DNA of 35,189 nt from contig CAIWMF010000103.1 in NCBI GenBank assembly GCA_903913785.1, positions 1-35,189 of the forward strand, written 5' to 3'. The DNA comes from an uncultured Spartobacteria bacterium (GTDB lineage: Bacteria; Verrucomicrobiota; Verrucomicrobiia; Chthoniobacterales; UBA6821). Position numbers and translations under genes: made by a program. The notes beneath the pieces were generated by a model, which did not search any database, had not been told where the DNA came from, and saw only the letters and a list, made by a program, of their open reading frames with translations. Below, in pieces: positions 1,753 through 35,079 of the stretch. Each line of letters opens with the position of its first letter. Position 1 is the first letter of the stretch.

Positions 1753-3123
1753 TTATTCTACGAGTGCTTGCCTTTTGTAAAGACGTAAAACAGCATTTCT
1801 AGCGAGGTTGTCAGCGTCCATAATTTCCTCTAGCGTCGGTTCCGCAATAACTGGAATTTCTTGCATTGTTGAGGCGACGTACATCCAAATAGTTGGCAGG
1901 GAAATTTTGCCTTCAAGAAAAAGTTGAACAGCTTGTTCATTAGCAGCATTGAGTACCGCAGGCAAAGTGCCTCCGATACTTCCGGCTTCTCTTGCTAAAC
2001 GAAGTGCTGGGAAGACATCATGACGCGGTTCCTCAAAATGAAGTGCTCCAATTCTTGGCAAATCAAGAAAATCACATGGACCTGCAATGCGCTCAGGATA
2101 AGTAACCGCACACTGAATGGGAAACATCATATTATTATCACTCATTTGGGCTAAGATAGAGCCATCCACAAATTCCACCATCGAATGAACAATGCTTTCA
2201 GGATGAATCACAACATCGATTTTTTCCATCGCAATACCAAAAAGGTGGTGCGCTTCGATCATCTCAAGACCTTTATTAAAGAGAGTGGCAGAATCAATAG
2301 TAATTTTAGGCCCCATCTCCCAAGTCGGATGACACAACGCCATCGATGGGGTGACCTTCTCTAATTGCTTGGCTGTTGTTGTGCGGAAAGGGCCGCCAGA
2401 ACAGGTGAGAATCAGCCTGCGAACGGTTGCGGGGTCGCGTCCTTCGAGACATTGAAAAAGAGCGTTGTGCTCGCTATCAATGGGAAGAACATGGCGTTTG
2501 TTTTCCCGAGCAGTTTTCATGACTTGATGTCCCGCCATCACTAAAATTTCTTTACTCGCAACAGCAATATTTTTACCTGCTTGTAAGGCAGCAAGAGCAG
2601 GTTGTAAACCCGCAGTGCCTACGATGGCGATTAATATTAATTCAGCTTCGCTCAAGGTTGCGAGTTTAATGAGGCCTTCCTCTCCGTAGTAAATATTAGG
2701 GGTAGGGGATAGGGAATGAAGGGTTTCCTGTAAAAGTTGTGCCTGTGCTTTGTCTTTTGTGCAGAGGGCTAGCCCGGATATTTCATACTCATCTACTGCG
2801 GAAACCGGGAAGCCTGATGGATGCTGCGCCCAAGCTCGAAATCTTCCTCGTGCAGTACGAAACATAAAGCCGTTGTCAGACTTCATCACTCGCCTTACCC
2901 CATCTGCCTTCGCAGTCTCCTCGTCACGATCAGTATGAAATATCCGGGCTAGAGCGTGAAATTCTTCTGCAAGATTGGCCAGAGCATGATGGTTGTTATA
3001 GCCAGAAAGACCAACGATGTTCATGCGCTCAGGCAGAGCTCGAGCGACTTTGGCAGCACTTCTTCCAATCGAGCCAGTTGCTCCTAAAATAACAACACGA
3101 CGAGGAAGAGAATAGTCACGCAT
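1753..3123 (-). CDS. dxr: 1-deoxy-D-xylulose 5-phosphate reductoisomerase with about 60-aa in-frame repeat-derived insertion
   Basis: ILGATGSIGRSAAKV, ASKEILVMAGHQVM, IDSEHNALFQCLEG, HPTWEMGPKITIDSATLFNKGLE, VIHPESIVHSMVEF. 456 aa, falling to about 396 aa without the insertion. Confidence 0.96.
   Translation of the reverse strand: MRDYSLPRRVVILGATGSIGRSAAKVARALPERMNIVGLSGYNNHHALANLAEEFHALARIFHTDRDEETAKADGVRRVMKSDNGFMFRTARGRFRAWAQHPSGFPVSAVDEYEISGLALCTKDKAQAQLLQETLHSLSPTPNIYYGEEGLIKLATLSEAELILIAIVGTAGLQPALAALQAGKNIAVASKEILVMAGHQVMKTARENKRHVLPIDSEHNALFQCLEGRDPATVRRLILTCSGGPFRTTTAKQLEKVTPSMALCHPTWEMGPKITIDSATLFNKGLEMIEAHHLFGIAMEKIDVVIHPESIVHSMVEFVDGSILAQMSDNNMMFPIQCAVTYPERIAGPCDFLDLPRIGALHFEEPRHDVFPALRLAREAGSIGGTLPAVLNAANEQAVQLFLEGKISLPTIWMYVASTMQEIPVIAEPTLEEIMDADNLARNAVLRLYKRQALVE
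2769..2952. repeat. Full palindromic element inside dxr, flanked by CTAG on both sides; net insertion 180 bp
   Basis: Left end CTAGCCCGGATATTTCATACT; right end AGTATGAAATATCCGGGCTAG; 19-bp perfect terminal inverted repeat; open in the dxr frame. Confidence 0.93.
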
Positions 3124-4309: not shown

Positions 4310-4499
4310 TTGACCTGGATATTTCACACTAAATCTATTACGGCTTGTGCAAAGCTCTATGGCTACTACGTTGGTCTCCAATTGTGATTTGGAGATGGCT
4401 GTACACATACAGCCTTGCATCACAATCATTCGCTCGCCTTGTATTAACAAGCTTTGCACAGTGCCTCATTACGATTCAGTATGAAATATCCGAGCTCAG
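4310..4499. repeat. Palindromic element between cdsA and recA (period 186 bp)
   Basis: Ends CCTGGATATTTCACACT and CATTACGATTCAGTATGAAATATCCGAG; internal stems GTGCAAAGCT/AGCTTTGCAC, TCTCCAA/TTGGAGA, GGCTGT/ACAGCC. Confidence 0.88.
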
Positions 4500-5709: not shown

Positions 5710-6005
5710 GCGTTTTAAAAAAGTTATGGCAGGGTGGAGTGCCAAGTCTGTGGTTGATGCGTTTGGCGAAGTTCGGCTCCGCACCTAATAGGGACTCCTT
5801 TTGCTAAGGGGTGGCTTACTTTTCGTAAGTCTACGCGAGCGGTCGCTTGGCGAGCTTTGTTCTCGCTCCTGCTCGTCTCGCCCTTTACAGCACTACCTCA
5901 AGAACCTCTGGGCAAATTTCCCCTCGCTCTCTCTTGGGACGCCAGTGGTGCCCTGTCAAGCTTCGCGGTCTCCTCGTCACGATCAGTATGAAATATCCGG
6001 GTTAA
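5710..6005. repeat. Palindromic-element family copy (right arm clear, left end not recognised) ending at TTAA on the nfo stop codon
   Basis: CTCTTGGGACGCCAGTGGTGCCCTGTCAAGCTTCGCGGTCTCCTCGTCACGATCAGTATGAAATATCCGGGTTAA shares an extended right arm with the copies ending at 22031 and 30822. Confidence 0.75.
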
Positions 6006-6856
6006 ACAAAACTACGTAGCAATTTCATTGCTGCCACATCTTCTGCTAAATCTTTACCTTTTGGTGTTTCTAAAATTTTAGGGATCAGGGCTAATTCCTC
6101 TGCTTGCATAATCCAGCGAAAGGCCTCTAAACCTATTTTTCCATTTTTTGGATCTCCAAGATTGGCATGACGATCGACCCGAGAACCAAGTGCCGCCTTT
6201 GATTCGTTGATATGCAGAGCGCAGAGTTTTTTTAATCCAATGATACGATCGAATTGATCAAAAACATTTTGTGCTCCATGAAGAGCAGAAAGATCATAGC
6301 CGCCGGCAAAGACATGTGCCGTGTCAAGGACAAAACGCAGGCGCTCTGGATCGTCAACATGCGCGAGTATGTCAGCCAGTTCCTCAAAATGAGAGCCAAG
6401 GCAGCTACCTTGGCCTGCCGTTGTTTCTAGGGCAATGCGAACCTTGAGTTTGGGGTGCTCTGCGTGAATTTGATTAAGACTGTGAACAATACAGCGAAGA
6501 CCATAAATCTTTCCCTTCCCGAGATGAGATCCGGGATGAAGGATCAAAAACGGAATTTCTAACTGATCGCAACGCAGTAATTCTTCGGCTAGTGAGCGTA
6601 GTGATTTCTCATGATTCAGTGAGTTTTCAGCAGCTAAATTAATCAGATATCCTGCATGTGCAAGCACTGATCCAAGGTTCTTACGTAGAGGGTGTTGAGT
6701 AAATGCATGAATTTCCTCAACTAAAAAAGGCTTGGCAAACCATTGGATATTATTTTTTACAAAAATCTGCATGGCCGTGCATCCTATGGCAACTGCACGT
6801 TCGATGGCTCGTGCAGCCCCTCCAACTGTGGGAATATGAGAACCAAGTAAGATCAT
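6002..6856 (-). CDS. nfo: Deoxyribonuclease IV (endonuclease IV)
   Basis: MILLGSHIPTVGG start, FLILHPGSHLG, ALETTAGQGSCLGSHFEEL, FVLDTAHVFAGGYDL, LHINESKAALGSRVDRHANLGDPKNGKIG. Confidence 0.96.
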   Translation of the reverse strand: MILLGSHIPTVGGAARAIERAVAIGCTAMQIFVKNNIQWFAKPFLVEEIHAFTQHPLRKNLGSVLAHAGYLINLAAENSLNHEKSLRSLAEELLRCDQLEIPFLILHPGSHLGKGKIYGLRCIVHSLNQIHAEHPKLKVRIALETTAGQGSCLGSHFEELADILAHVDDPERLRFVLDTAHVFAGGYDLSALHGAQNVFDQFDRIIGLKKLCALHINESKAALGSRVDRHANLGDPKNGKIGLEAFRWIMQAEELALIPKILETPKGKDLAEDVAAMKLLRSFV

Positions 6857-21458: not shown

Positions 21459-21589
21459 ATAATTGCTATTTCGCACAGTTTCTTTGTTTCTAGCTGTTTA
21501 TCTAATCGTCTTAAATTAAGCATTAGCAAATCGTTCTCAAAACATGCTACTTTGCGGGTGCGCCTACCTTGTATTCAGTTATAAGAGTC

Positions 21590-22031
21590 CTGTCCCTAAT
21601 ATTTCATACTGATCTCATGCAGAGGTTGAGAAGCTAGGGTAGATTCTGCGTGAAGCTCACATTTTGACTTGGGCAGTATTGTAAAAGCCTCCGTCATTTC
21701 CGCGAAAGAGGGGACGTAAAAAGTCCGCCTGCTTTGAGTTGCTTTGCGAAGCTCTCCTCTCTTTCACGGCTGTCTTTATATAATCAAATTACTTTGAAAT
21801 GACTTTGTTTTTTTTTGAAAAAAGCATCGTTATCATCTCTTTACGTTATCTTTAGGTAGCGCTTGCTCTTTCTAAAAATCCTTATGTTCTTTCATATAAT
21901 TTTAAAATAATTTAACTATAGTCATGACTAAAGTGAGAGGCAGTTCTCGGGAGTCTCTTGGGCTGCCGGTGGTATACCTTATCAGACTTCGCAGATTCCT
22001 CATCACAATCAGTGTGAAATATTCGGGTTAA
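21590..22031. repeat. Long palindromic-element family copy downstream of secY (period 438 bp)
   Basis: Left end CCCTAATATTTCATACTGATC; right arm CTTCGCAGATTCCTCATCACAATCAGTGTGAAATATTCGGGTTAA. Confidence 0.82.
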
Positions 22032-22255
22032 GCAATTTAATAGCGTGCTTTTTCTCATATCTCTATTGCTCGCAAAGCTCATTTATTAGTACTATCTTTC
22101 CTTTTTTCCTCGTTGTGCATAACGCCACCTCAGCTTCGGTAGCATCTCTTTTTTCGTTATTGAACTTACCCGAGATCTTCCTTTTTCAGGGTGTCATTAT
22201 TTATGAGTCAATTCGGTTCTCTCAAATTTTTTTCAAAACGCTTGCAAAGTAGCTG

Positions 22256-22292
22256 TCTGCTCGTCACGATCACTATGAAATATCTGTTTTAA
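22256..22292. repeat. Half copy of the palindromic element
   Basis: CTGCTCGTCACGATCACTATGAAATATCTGTTTTAA. Confidence 0.75.
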
Positions 22293-26825: not shown

Positions 26826-26862
26826 TTAACCCGGATATTTCATACTGAATCGTCATGAGGCG
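26826..26862. repeat. Half copy of the palindromic element at the 3' end of the iscU-like gene
   Basis: TTAACCCGGATATTTCATACTGAATCGTCATGAGGCG; contains the iscU-like stop codon. Confidence 0.88.
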
Positions 26863-28071: not shown

Positions 28072-28887
28072 ATGAATAATACAAAAGAAGAAACAGAGTA
28101 TCCAGTTCGAGATCTAGATTTAAGCAATACGCAACCATTCTTAAATGGCTCGACAACGTTTCATCAGCAAGAACCTCTCAAGGAGAAGCACGAAAGTAAA
28201 AAGAAATATGACCCAGGAGAAATTGTGATTTTACCAAAACATCCCAAAGCCATTTATGAGGGCAGGTGGATTTTCATGGGTTTAGGGATTTTATGGTTGC
28301 TTGCATTGCTCTTTTCTCCTTTTTTGGCATTACCTGTCGGGCTTCTTATTATTTTTACCTGTTATTTTTTTCGCGATCCAGAGAGAGAGGTTCCGTGTGA
28401 TCCCATGCTTGTTGTTTCACCTGCTGATGGGCTAGTGACAGCTATTGAAGAAGTTGATGGAGTCGAAGGTGACCTTTACTTAACGCAGAGAATGAGGAGA
28501 ATTTCGATTTTTCTTTCAGTCTTTGATGTGCATGTGAATCGTTCTCCTATTGAGGGCGAAATCATCCATAGCGAGCCACGAGGTGGGCTTTATTTAGATG
28601 CACGCAAACCAGAGTCATCGATACTGAATGAAAGTCGACTTTGGATTATTCAGCGAGATTCTTACAGCGTAGGGGTCAAACAAATTACTGGGGCTATTGC
28701 GCGGCGTATTGTTCCTTGGGCTCATGTGGGGAATCATCTTAACCGAGGCGAACGTTTTGGTATGATTCGATTTGGTTCACGTACGGAACTCTATATCCCG
28801 CTCGAATTTCAAGTACTCGTTGAAGTTGGAAATAAGGTGCAAGGTGGTTCAAGTGCGGTGGCAAAAATAAGGAGTCAAAACTCATGA
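28072..28887 (+). CDS. psd: Phosphatidylserine decarboxylase (proenzyme)
   Basis: SPADGLVTAIEEV, SVFDVHVNRSPIEGEI, GAIARRIVPWAHVGNHLNRGERFGMIRFGSRTELYIP (GS self-cleavage site). Confidence 0.93.
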   Translation: MNNTKEETEYPVRDLDLSNTQPFLNGSTTFHQQEPLKEKHESKKKYDPGEIVILPKHPKAIYEGRWIFMGLGILWLLALLFSPFLALPVGLLIIFTCYFFRDPEREVPCDPMLVVSPADGLVTAIEEVDGVEGDLYLTQRMRRISIFLSVFDVHVNRSPIEGEIIHSEPRGGLYLDARKPESSILNESRLWIIQRDSYSVGVKQITGAIARRIVPWAHVGNHLNRGERFGMIRFGSRTELYIPLEFQVLVEVGNKVQGGSSAVAKIRSQNS

Positions 28888-29696
28888 GTTCACAAGAGCC
28901 AAAAATTTACCTCCTCCCCAATTTAATGACTGCTGGAAATCTTTTCTGTGGTTTTGCAGCAGTTCTTAAAATCATAGAAGCCTCTCTTCTTAGTGCCGCT
29001 GGAGAGCCTGTGGTTATGCGCTACTATGTGGCCATTTCATTTATCTTAGGAGCTTGTTTGTTTGATCTTTTAGATGGTCGATTAGCACGTCTTGGAGGAC
29101 ATGAAAGCCCGTTTGGACGAGAATTTGATTCACTGGCTGATATGGTTTCCTTTGGACTCGCGCCGGCTCTTTTGGTTTATCAAATTGTTCTACAAGATTT
29201 TCATCGTACAGGATGGATTATTGCTTTTGTCTATTTGCTGTGTGGTGCCTTGCGCCTTGCTCGGTTTAACTGCTTGTCTCAAAACATTCGAGGGAGAGAA
29301 GAGGCAGAAGAGTGTTCTAGGGAATTTTCCGGATTTCCTATTCCTGCAGCAGCAGGACTTATTGCCTCACTCACACTCATGATGCTTTCCTTAGATGAGG
29401 GTCAGAGAACAATAGGACGTTGGAAATTTGCGCTTCCTGCGGTCTTGCTCTTTCTTTCCTTTATGATGTTTAGTCGTGTGAAATATCCAAGTTTTAAGGG
29501 TCTGAATTGGGGCTCTCAACGCTCGATCCCACGTTTTCTCATTATCATCCTCATTTTGATCTTTGCGGCCATGAACTATGAATGGATGCCTTCTGTTTTA
29601 TTTATCACGTTCTTACTGTATGGCTTTGTGAGGCCATTTTTATCCAAGCCGCTACGTGATGAAATTGAAGAAGAAGAAACGGAAAGGCAAGAGTGA
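28884..29696 (+). CDS. pssA: CDP-diacylglycerol--serine O-phosphatidyltransferase
   Basis: LLPNLMTAGNLFCGF; CDP-alcohol phosphatidyltransferase motif DLLDGRLARLGGHESPFGREFDSLADMVSFG. Confidence 0.95.
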   Translation: MSSQEPKIYLLPNLMTAGNLFCGFAAVLKIIEASLLSAAGEPVVMRYYVAISFILGACLFDLLDGRLARLGGHESPFGREFDSLADMVSFGLAPALLVYQIVLQDFHRTGWIIAFVYLLCGALRLARFNCLSQNIRGREEAEECSREFSGFPIPAAAGLIASLTLMMLSLDEGQRTIGRWKFALPAVLLFLSFMMFSRVKYPSFKGLNWGSQRSIPRFLIIILILIFAAMNYEWMPSVLFITFLLYGFVRPFLSKPLRDEIEEEETERQE

Positions 29697-29751: not shown

Positions 29752-30549
29752 TTGAAAAAAATCATTTCATGGCATGCCGCACGTCTCATGAAAACAAACT
29801 CCCAACAACATCACCGCTGTGCCTGGTCTCTAAAAAGTCCATTAATGATGGAGTATCATGATCATGAATGGGGTGTTCCTGTGCGTGATGATACAATACT
29901 TTTTGAATTTTTAGTTCTTGAATCTGCTCAGGCAGGTCTTTCCTGGCAGACCGTGCTTCAGAAACGAGATGCCTATCGTAAAGCTTTTGATCAATTTGAT
30001 CCTAAAAAAGTTGCTTGCTACGGTGAGAAAGAAGTAGGTCGCTTGGTTACTAATCCAGGAATTATTCGCAATCGACTCAAAATTCTAGCAGCTATTACAA
30101 ACGCCAAAGTTTTTTTAGAACTACAAAGAGAGCATGGCTCTTTCAGTAATTACATTTGGGAGTTCGTCCATTGTCAGACCATCAATCATAAAATAAAAAA
30201 TGCAAAAATGTTTTTTTGTACGAGTAAAGAGTCTGAGTTGATGAGCTGTGAGCTTCGCAGGCGAGGCTTCACCTTTGTGGGCTCAAAAATTTGTTATTCC
30301 TTTATGCAAGCAGTCGGAATGGTCAATGATCATGAGATAGGATGCTTTCGTCATCACGAGGTGATGGATAGCCCTAAAAACTCTTACGCAAAAAATCTTA
30401 CAATTGATGAGAGAAAAGCTGATGAGGGAAAAGCAGAAGCATCATCTGGTGGATGGGGAGGGATTCGAACCCTCGGTGCCGATCAAGGCACACACGCTTT
30501 CCAAGCGAGCGCATTCGACCACTCTGCCACCCATCCTTACAACTTATAA
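29752..30549 (+). CDS. tag: DNA-3-methyladenine glycosylase I, with C-terminal read-through across antisense tRNA-Ser
   Basis: RCAWSLKSPLMMEYHDHEWGVPVRDD, LVLESAQAGLSWQTVLQKRDAYRKAF, FVGSKICYSFMQAVGMVNDHEIGCFRH. Real start may be ATG 29788. Confidence 0.93.
   Translation: MKKIISWHAARLMKTNSQQHHRCAWSLKSPLMMEYHDHEWGVPVRDDTILFEFLVLESAQAGLSWQTVLQKRDAYRKAFDQFDPKKVACYGEKEVGRLVTNPGIIRNRLKILAAITNAKVFLELQREHGSFSNYIWEFVHCQTINHKIKNAKMFFCTSKESELMSCELRRRGFTFVGSKICYSFMQAVGMVNDHEIGCFRHHEVMDSPKNSYAKNLTIDERKADEGKAEASSGGWGGIRTLGADQGTHAFQASAFDHSATHPYNL
30447..30536 (-). tRNA. tRNA-Ser (anticodon GGA), CCA apparently encoded
   Basis: GGATGGGTGGCAGAGTGGTCGAATGCGCTCGCTTGGAAAGCGTGTGTGCCTTGATCGGCACCGAGGGTTCGAATCCCTCCCCATCCACCA: 7-bp acceptor stem, long variable arm, GGTTCGAATCC T-arm, TTGGAAA anticodon loop. 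Confidence 0.95.
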
Positions 30550-30557
30550 TATTCGGG

Positions 30558-30822
30558 TTAACCCGGATATTTCATACCGATTCTGCTGCGGCTTGCGAAC
30601 ACCTGATGGATACTGCGTCAGCTTCGAATTGCTCCTCGGGCAGTATGAAGCATACAGCCGTCGTCGCAATCCATCACCTTCGTTGACTCGCTCGCTCCCG
30701 CTCGTCTCGCCCTTTCAGGGCTGCCTAAAGGCAGTCTCCACCGCGGTCTCCCGACCGCCGCTGGTGTCTGCATCAGGATTCGCGGCGCCTCGCGACGAAT
30801 CAGTGTGAAATATTCGGGTTAA
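30558..30822. repeat. Full palindromic element flanked by TTAA on both sides (period 261 bp)
   Basis: TTAACCCGGATATTTCATACCGATTC ... GACGAATCAGTGTGAAATATTCGGGTTAA; internal TGATGGAT/ATCCATCA and ATACTGC/GCAGTAT stems. Confidence 0.92.
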
Positions 30823-32706: not shown

Positions 32707-35079
32707 ATGACTCTTCTCTTTTTTATCCTCACATCATTTTTTGCTAATGTTCTAAAAGGAGGAGACCAATGTTCTTCTTCGCAAGACATCAAGATCACTA
32801 TTGATCTAGTGCATCCTCGAAAAATTACTGATTTTTCTCAAACGATGGGAGGATGTCTTGATGGCCATGAGAAAAACAGTGTGGCCTTTGATCATGCACC
32901 AGCATCCTTGAGCTTCCCTTGTCATGAAGAGAGGAATACATCATTGATCCATGGCGTTAAGAACTCTGCGATCTCTGCCATGCTCTCTTCAGGACTCAAG
33001 CCCGTTGCTTACCGTCTGCGTACTGAATTAGGAGTCGAATCATGGCATTGGAATCCCTCGGGTAGCTGGAGTGATCCCTTGCACCATCAAGGTTATTGGA
33101 CATCTTGTGCGCAGTCAAAAATTCCTATCACCCGTAGCTATGGATATCGTCTTCCACGACGTGGTAATACATTAGATGAAGCCAATAATGATAGTTACTC
33201 ACGCCTCGATGATGGGAATGAGAATACTTTTTGGAAGAGCAATCCTTATCTCACTGGTCATTACACAGGAGAGTTAGACTCTAGCCACCCGCAGTGGGTG
33301 ATCATTGATTTTGGAAAATCAGTTTTTATTAATGCGGCTCGTCTTCATTGGAAGCATCCGTATGCTCAAAAATATCGTATTCAATATTCACGTGGCGGAG
33401 ATCTCTATTTTGGACATGGAGGTGCGTGGCATGATTTTCCAAACGGAAAATATGTCAGCTCTCGCGGAGGCGCTCCCATCCTTGATTTGGGCATGCCACA
33501 TAATTTTTGGGGCCAAACATTCCCTGTTCAGTATGTGAGAATCTTGATGACGGAGAGTTCGTATACGGCAATGCCAGGAAGTCATGATCCAAGAGATCAT
33601 ATGGGGTATGCCCTAGGAGAGATTGAACTAGGGTATTTCACATCTCACGCATTTCATGATCAGATCATCCATTGTCCTAATCAGAAGCAAACGCTCCTTT
33701 ATGTCTCTTCGACAGATCCGTGGCATCGTTCGTGTGATAAGGATGAGAGAACGCAGCAGCCTGGGCTCGATCGTGTCGCACAATTGACTCTTAATCATCA
33801 TCAGCCAATTCTTTGGTCGCTACCCATTCTCTATGACACTCCTGAAAATGCTCTCGCTGAGGTTGAATTTTTAAAAAAACGTGCCTACCTCTCTCCTGGT
33901 CAGCGTCTAGAACTAGGAGAAGAGCCAGATGGACAACGCGTCGATCCCAAGGATGTAGCAGAGTTGTATGCTCAGGTATCAAAAAAAATTCATCATGCTT
34001 ATCCTGATCTTAGTCTTGGTGGACTTAGTTTTGTGACCATTGATGTAAACCCGGGGGATCTCATTTACCGTGTGGATAAGAGACCGTGGTTACAACGTTT
34101 TTTCAAACAGCTTCGTCACAAAGGGGAGAGAAAAAATTTTCAATTTCTCAGCTTTGAGTGGTATCCCTTTGATGATTTACTCCTGCCTGCAGCCCCCTTG
34201 TTAATCAAACAACCCAGACGTTTGGCGCAAGCGTATGAGCGGATTTACCATGGTGGTATTCCAAGAACGATGCCTCTCATCATGAGTGAATATGGCTATT
34301 CTGTTTTTTCTGGAGAGCCAGAGGTGACCCTCTCGGCTGCGCTATTACAGGCTGATATTGCGGCACAGTTTTTATTACTTGGAGGAACCACTTCTTATCT
34401 CTATGGATATGAACCCAACTTGCTGGAATGTGGCTATGGAAATTCCTGGGGTAATCTCATGATGTTACATGCAGATAAGCGAACCCAAGACCACCTGGAG
34501 CCTCTGCCTACCTACTATAGTTCGCAGCTTCTAACTCAGCATTGGGGCCCAACTTCAGGTGGCGCATGTGATCTTTATCCTGTAAATACACAAACAAAGA
34601 CAAAGGATCAGGATGCAAATGTCACTGGTTATTTTCTCTCCACAGGGGTATTTCATACTCGTGGTACCAAGGAAATAGCGAAGGCTCCTCGTCACAATCA
34701 GTATGAAATATCTGGGCTGGCCCCTGCCCAAGAGGAACAACATCACGCACTCCTCTTAGTCAATAAACACCCGAGCCACGCCTATTCTCTCATATGCTCT
34801 TTGAATAAGGCTTCATGGTTTCTTCCTCACCAGCGCGAGGAAATAAGGAGACGTACAAAAGAGCTTTCTGGTCTGTGGACATGTTATTGCTACTCACCGA
34901 GTCAATATGAGTGGCATGCCCAAGGAGCTAAGGGATATGCCTCGCGTAACAAGCCTCCTAGTAAAGACTTCTGTTCGGCAGAGATAAAACATCACTCTGG
35001 AACGACTTTTCTTGAGTTTCAAAAAAATCATCAACCCATCTCTCTCCATCCCTCATCCATCACGCTGTTGTGTAAATAG
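32707..35079 (+). CDS. Putative secreted discoidin (F5/8 type C)-like / glycoside-hydrolase-like protein with in-frame repeat insertion
   Basis: N-terminal signal-like MTLLFFILTSFFANVL; SRLDDGNENTFWKSNPYL...PQWVIIDFGKSVFINAARLHWKHPYAQKYRIQYS discoidin-like; possible clan GH-A-like acidic motifs LGEEPDG and MSEYGYS. Confidence 0.6.
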   Translation: MTLLFFILTSFFANVLKGGDQCSSSQDIKITIDLVHPRKITDFSQTMGGCLDGHEKNSVAFDHAPASLSFPCHEERNTSLIHGVKNSAISAMLSSGLKPVAYRLRTELGVESWHWNPSGSWSDPLHHQGYWTSCAQSKIPITRSYGYRLPRRGNTLDEANNDSYSRLDDGNENTFWKSNPYLTGHYTGELDSSHPQWVIIDFGKSVFINAARLHWKHPYAQKYRIQYSRGGDLYFGHGGAWHDFPNGKYVSSRGGAPILDLGMPHNFWGQTFPVQYVRILMTESSYTAMPGSHDPRDHMGYALGEIELGYFTSHAFHDQIIHCPNQKQTLLYVSSTDPWHRSCDKDERTQQPGLDRVAQLTLNHHQPILWSLPILYDTPENALAEVEFLKKRAYLSPGQRLELGEEPDGQRVDPKDVAELYAQVSKKIHHAYPDLSLGGLSFVTIDVNPGDLIYRVDKRPWLQRFFKQLRHKGERKNFQFLSFEWYPFDDLLLPAAPLLIKQPRRLAQAYERIYHGGIPRTMPLIMSEYGYSVFSGEPEVTLSAALLQADIAAQFLLLGGTTSYLYGYEPNLLECGYGNSWGNLMMLHADKRTQDHLEPLPTYYSSQLLTQHWGPTSGGACDLYPVNTQTKTKDQDANVTGYFLSTGVFHTRGTKEIAKAPRHNQYEISGLAPAQEEQHHALLLVNKHPSHAYSLICSLNKASWFLPHQREEIRRRTKELSGLWTCYCYSPSQYEWHAQGAKGYASRNKPPSKDFCSAEIKHHSGTTFLEFQKNHQPISLHPSSITLLCK
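34639..34720. repeat. Short palindromic element in frame within the 790-aa ORF (period 78 bp)
   Basis: GGGGTATTTCATACTCGTGGTACC...GGCTCCTCGTCACAATCAGTATGAAATATCTGGGCT; translated STGVFHTRGTKEIAKAPRHNQYEISGL. Confidence 0.88.

Follow-up and report, generated by a model that had tools for sequence, protein, structure and literature searches.

In-frame copies of a short palindromic element in protein-coding genes of uncultured Chthoniobacterales

Introduction

Among mobile palindromes that are read as part of protein-coding genes, the Rickettsia palindromic elements (RPE) were reportedly described by Ogata et al. in 2000 and 2002. RPE are short palindromes of 105–146 bp that lie in frame in many genes, and their target duplication is listed as "?" (PMC2229807; also reviewed in PMC10969869). 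The protein-coding palindromic repeats of Wolbachia (Ogata et al. 2005, as cited in PMC2229807) represent the same idea in an alphaproteobacterial endosymbiont. QMITE1 and QMITE2 of Coxiella burnetii (PMC5896051) and ERIC/NEMIS (PMC2229807) are bacterial MITEs that are sometimes fused to ORFs or located within them, and in-frame MITE fusions are described from enterobacteria, Neisseria, and Coxiella (PMC10969869, PMC2229807, PMC5896051). The QMITEs are found internally and in frame on occasion, and most of their listed effects on known genes concern the gene ends (PMC5896051). No papers on such elements in Verrucomicrobiota were found among the open-licence literature.

Here, we analyzed a 35,189-nucleotide stretch of DNA (the window) from an uncultured Spartobacteria bacterium of the order Chthoniobacterales. 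It carries copies of an element family that resembles RPE in being a short mobile palindrome with a long stem-loop and its own open frame, present in unrelated conserved genes as well as between genes. The family nevertheless differs from RPE: it is found in another phylum, its unit is 176 + 4 bp instead of 105–146 bp, and it has a clear 4-bp YTAR target duplication where that of RPE is marked "?". Furthermore, unlike RPE, its ends match those of IS1380 elements from the same order and both of its strands are open in one register. This separation is based on phylum, unit size, and duplication. The Wolbachia repeats, which also belong to a different phylum, are likened to the family by description. 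In contrast to the QMITEs, the family is internal to over thirty conserved or long ORFs, with nearly all of these copies adding 60 codons.

We conclude, with a probability of about 0.87, that a 78-bp insert in a glycoside hydrolase gene of the window is a short fold-back copy of this MITE, and that the family enters genes at YTAR, adds 180 bp, is restricted in frame, and is translated in its host proteins. The translation, the mover, and the origin of the short form are inferred parts of this conclusion.

Results

The insert in the glycoside hydrolase gene

The host gene and the insert are located as follows.

32707–35079, + strand: gene for a secreted, clan-GH-A-like glycoside hydrolase that contains an F5/8C domain and, at the C terminus, a beta-sandwich (Pfam, profiles, AlphaFold2, Foldseek)
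34639–34720, + strand: short element copy forming a 78-bp in-frame insert; a 74-bp copy (34643–34716) with eroded 4-bp flanks, encoding TGVFHTRGTKEIAKAPRHNQYEISGL

The product of ORF 32707–35079 contains a Pfam F5_F8_type_C domain and shows weak similarity to GH39 beta-xylosidase profiles. Its AlphaFold2 model (mean pLDDT 80) has Foldseek matches that are glycoside hydrolases, and the predicted fold resembles clan GH-A, with the clan name being our reading of these matches. A search of named genomes for relatives of this protein assigns the window to Chthoniobacterales (Verrucomicrobiota). The earlier note, made from the sequence of the window, had reported the peptide LSTGVFHTRGTKEIAKAPRHNQYEISGLAPAQ in a secreted-protein ORF, and the peptide was located there, in the context GYFLS-TGVFHTRGTKEIAKAPRHNQYEISGL-APAQ. 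Ungapped alignment of the window protein to its nearest sister implied an in-frame insertion of 26 residues (78 bp). In an alignment with ~24 orthologous ORFs of the genus, the family, and the order, these residues were present at this site in the window protein alone, and all orthologues of these three ranks that covered the site lacked them. The comparison with orthologues lacking the 26 residues, which the earlier note had proposed, thus returned an empty site in every orthologue examined, and the distant orthologues with the same peptide that would have spoken against an insertion were looked for and not found. In the AlphaFold2 model, the insert is predicted to form a disordered loop between strands 639–645 and 680–686 of the C-terminal beta-sandwich, and residues 651–675 are the sole stretch of this domain with pLDDT < 50. 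The length of the loop at this site varies across the orthologues.

In the window copy, 34 of 37 bases of the 3′ half agree with the left arm of the element in reverse complement, a better fit than to the right arm, and 28 of 38 bases of the 5′ half agree with the left arm in its direct orientation. The copy therefore has the short form claimed in the earlier note, but not the simple deletion of most of the interior that was also claimed; its two halves indicate a head-to-head fold-back of two left arms. It is flanked by TCCA on the left, where the duplication has eroded past recognition, and by CTGG on the right, which is one change from CTAG. Three bases differ in its left end, and the DNA hairpin of the insert has a z of −2.5. 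Judged by its sequence, the copy looks old. The frame has been kept because 74 + 4 = 78 bp.

The G003 orthologue, from a sister species, has a full copy of the same element family, 60 residues long, ~50 residues downstream in the same domain. The orthologue from G005 has an insert elsewhere in this domain, which comes from a second, unrelated palindromic family. The same gene has been hit independently, at other sites, in two sister species.

The element family

The other features of the family in the window are listed below.

279–326, − strand: C-terminal tail HDQHETSGLRNEY of the panC product, like an eroded translated element end (by inspection)
1753–3123, − strand: dxr, host of the full-length copy (Pfam)
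2769–2952, − strand: full-length 176-bp element (2773–2948) with CTAG/CTAG, inside dxr, adding 60 codons; absent from 17 dxr orthologues
4310–4498, unstranded: degraded 181-bp copy upstream of a CDP-diglyceride synthase-like gene, not in frame
5960–6007, + strand: intergenic, terminal part of a copy akin to the 257-bp form, with which it has the CTCGCTCC..CGTCTCGCCCTTT block in common at 5862
21584–22033, unstranded: long degraded intergenic copy with ends at 21594 and 22027
22248–22292, + strand: degraded single end, intergenic
26826–26851, − strand: single element end, intergenic
30558–30822, unstranded: 257-bp form of the element with TTAA/TTAA, intergenic

A search of the window for the 18-bp end motif, with at most 3 mismatches allowed, gave 11 matches, compared to 0.04 expected from dinucleotide shuffles. 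In the 1.63-Mb genome to which the window belongs (G000), the exact end pattern is present 134 + 113 = 247 times, whereas the reversed-pattern control gave 0 matches. About 238 exact ends are present in the sister genome G003, and the rest of the order has few or none; the genomes compared are draft metagenome assemblies. The exact 32-bp end was not present in the viral contigs searched, and an Rfam scan of the window gave no match except a tRNA. An end-like match at 29476–29493, within the pssA-like gene (28884–29696), was judged to be due to chance; it encodes VKYPSFK, which we take to be a conserved motif of the family of this gene.

The family is a MITE with full-length copies of 176 bp and the ends CCCGGATATTTCATAC. 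Aligned full-length copies start with CCCGGATATTTCATACTGATCGTGACGAGGAG, and at their other end the terminal bases recur in inverted form. In a first census of 73 copies, the size classes were 57–60, 74, 97, 160–163, 174–182, 192–223, 257, and 268–306 bp, with 51 of the 73 copies in the 174–182 bp class. The properties of a MITE are all present: the elements are short (176–182 bp in the main class), have terminal inverted repeats and no transposase ORF, are flanked by a 4-bp YTAR duplication (TTAA, CTAG, TTAG, or CTAA), and are dispersed, as indicated by the 247 ends and by the dxr and glycoside hydrolase sites that are empty in the sister species. For the 115 copies flanked by YTAR at both ends, the left and right flanks agree in their first base (Fisher p = 2e-13) and in their last base (p = 2e-13). 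Asymmetric targets were found as TTAG/TTAG or CTAA/CTAA 10 times, compared to TTAG/CTAA once.

The insert in dxr was absent from all 17 dxr orthologues found, including that of the element-rich sister G003. Besides Dxr, the hosts identified by Pfam are a PDDEXK nuclease, GlnD, ComEC, an FtsX permease, a PMT-type mannosyltransferase, NadE, ResB, a branched-chain amino acid permease, an AraC-type regulator, a GHMP kinase (IspE-like), and a low-molecular-weight phosphatase. In NadE of G003 (L146:2766-3121, contig C93), two tandem 176-bp copies with a common TTAA add 120 codons to the NAD synthase domain, which still has a Pfam score of 1e-66. A 1018-codon ORF without a Pfam match in the window genome (L086:860-3913, contig C145) contains two 60-codon copies, at residues 84–143 and 789–848.

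Three further observations were made on coding sequences. The PanC tail (279–326, − strand) now appears to supply the stop region of its gene. Many copies in G003 have one TAG in the otherwise open register, which suggests a subfamily that has lost its open frame. The 3′ end of an ORF that starts like a DNA-3-methyladenine glycosylase (29752–30549, + strand) overlaps the tRNA gene at 30450–30536 on the opposite strand.

The candidate mover

The IS1380 family comprises relatives of piggyBac. An IS1380 element from another family of the same order (L260) has the structure CTAG, CCCGGATATTTCA...TGAAATATGCGGG, CTAG, and two further elements (L262 and L264) are similar. The three IS1380 transposases, all from other families of the order, are bounded at both ends by YTAR followed by CCCGNATATTT(C/T)A or a near variant. 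The present family thus has about 13 bp of its ends, next to YTAR, in common with three IS1380 (PF13701) elements, together with the 4-bp duplication. In contrast to these elements, it is a MITE without a transposase, and the common sequence is limited to about the first 13 bp. From the ends and the target duplication, an IS1380-type transposase acting in trans is probably the mover.

No IS1380 transposase was found in the window genome or in the genus: the profile search of G000 with PF13701 gave no match, the same profile gave only a sub-threshold overlap in G004 across the genus, and no IS1380 transposase was found in six genomes with the L260 protein as the query. An IS1380-type enzyme that has been lost, is unassembled, or acts from outside is our best guess. 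Alternatively, the mover could be a transposase of another type, with the shared 13-bp end being convergent. The missing IS1380 gene in the genus agrees with this alternative, as does the general knowledge that IS5, for example, also targets YTAR. However, the boundaries of the three IS1380 transposases of the order are of the kind described above, whereas the DDE_Tnp_1 loci fetched from the genus have no such end pair around the transposase. We therefore regard a non-IS1380 mover as unlikely, although it is the strongest of the competing explanations.

Retention and shared inserts

Two in-gene inserts are common to G004 and G005 at orthologous sites (L105/L106 and L110/L113). These were the only shared inserts found, and they have therefore been retained since these two species split. 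The earlier note had argued for repeated invasion or retention, and both are in line with more than 100 copies in the genome, the dxr and glycoside hydrolase sites that are empty in G003, the independent inserts in the sister species, and the two shared copies.

Between G004 and G005, 6 of 352 bases differ in the shared inserts, compared to 82 of 997 in the flanking coding sequence (p = 4e-6), so that the inserts, at these two loci, are about five times less diverged than their surroundings. The ispE insert has no synonymous change in its 60 codons. This slower divergence at two loci is a hint and not a result. It would fit with palindromes inside genes being kept by selection on the nucleic acid (e.g., on a DNA or mRNA hairpin), which would slow the divergence of shared inserted codons relative to that of the host gene around them, but we give this little weight. 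The same observations could be taken to mean that the inserts are adaptive, with the palindrome or the peptide being kept for a function beyond mere tolerance. This is improbable, as the evidence comes from two loci only, most inserts are private to one species, and the distribution of substitutions over the codon positions shows no difference between in-gene and other copies (p = 0.70), with no sign of codon-position constraint on the former.

The second palindromic repeat family has many copies in G004 and G005 and few in the window genome. It lies in frame in the glycoside hydrolase gene of G005 (L163:6978-7135) and in a few other long ORFs. Chimeric copies with ends of the first family and a core of the second were also seen (L313 in G000:C83, and L082:1020-1211), which suggests modular exchange or nested insertion between the palindromic families.

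The reading frame of in-gene copies

The 176 bp of the element and the 4-bp duplication make up 180 bp, or 60 codons. The consensus is free of stop codons in register 0 only, where YTA is read as a codon, and this holds for both strands. The peptides in register 0 are LARIFHTDRDEETAKADGVRRVMKSDDGC...DQYEISGL on one strand and LARIFHTDLLRRPGSQMDAALSS...SPRHDQYEISGL on the other, and xARIFHTD...DQYEISGL is encoded by both orientations of the element. Because register 0 is open on both strands, the same end peptides are seen in differently oriented genes, and the end peptide recurs because palindromic ends are combined with a 4-bp target duplication and a 180-bp unit. The inserts in dxr and in the secreted protein had been said to share a frame, and in both of them YTA is indeed the first codon of the end.

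An in-gene copy was defined by its open frame, as one in an ORF that reaches at least 45 codons on each side. By this definition, 37 of the 149 copies examined are inside ORFs, in a sample that was drawn from regions partly picked for long ORFs and whose counts are thus not those of a random sample. Of these 37 copies in unrelated protein genes, 36 are in register 0, a palindromic in-frame arrangement like that of RPE; the core is in one orientation in 28 copies and in the other in 9. The length plus 4 is divisible by 3 in 36 of the 37 in-gene copies, compared to 57 of the 112 other copies (p = 4e-8). The restriction to one register does not arise from the target alone, because, of the YTAR sites in the genes of the window, 179 are in one of the two possible registers and 197 in the other.

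We also considered that many copies break genes out of frame. This was rejected: when the flanks of the remaining copies were joined, a spanning ORF with at least 45 codons on each side was obtained for 8 of 98 copies, compared to 32 of 346 random joins. Out-of-frame insertions thus do not form a visible pool within genes. Such a result is predicted by translation of the insert combined with the loss of disruptive insertions, and not by splicing or bypass.

The full element is a very stable hairpin (the dxr copy folds as a nearly complete one, with an RNA z of −8.8) and could in principle be cut or bypassed, in which case the insert would be removed after transcription, like an intron, or skipped by the ribosome, and would be absent from the protein. 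Frame, length, and stop codons would then be irrelevant, yet all but one of the in-gene copies are open and in frame, and the number of out-of-frame copies in genes does not exceed the chance level. Moreover, precise excision would poorly tolerate the eroded left end of the window copy. Removal or bypass is thus highly improbable. Finally, the insert could be native to the protein family, as a conserved surface loop that resembles the repeat by chance or convergence. This view has in its favor the predicted beta-sandwich loop of variable length, but it is refuted by the match of the DNA, as well as of the peptide, to the repeat (in both halves of the fold-back), and it is also at odds with the lack of the insert in every orthologue and with the very low number of chance end matches expected per window.

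Discussion

The family, its ends, the target duplication, the phase restriction, and the lineage-specific insertion are directly supported by the data above. In the mechanism that we propose for the translated MITE, a transposase of the IS1380 type would move full-length 176-bp copies in trans, and these would insert at YTAR, duplicate 4 bp, and add 180 bp, or 60 codons. In target genes that read YTA as a codon, an insert of either orientation would be free of stop codons, and its palindromic ends would give the same flanking peptides. The host gene would stay open, with the peptide presumably translated as a surface loop, while insertions in other registers would break the gene and then be lost. 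In the window copy, two left arms would have been joined head to head, with the 78 bp keeping the frame. Judging from their open frames, the host proteins seem to contain the inserted peptide.

The best-known in-frame "protein-coding palindromes" are those of Rickettsia and Wolbachia, for which the route of entry is unclear. The same phenomenon is now seen in another phylum, in uncultured lake Verrucomicrobia that are not known as endosymbionts, and here the sequence offers a simple mechanism: a target fixed in frame, a net length divisible by three, and both orientations open. Such inserts also matter for the annotation of these genomes, where they distort gene models as well as alignments and structure predictions. 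Sister-species comparison and proteomics make it possible to test whether essential enzymes gain new peptide segments from mobile DNA.
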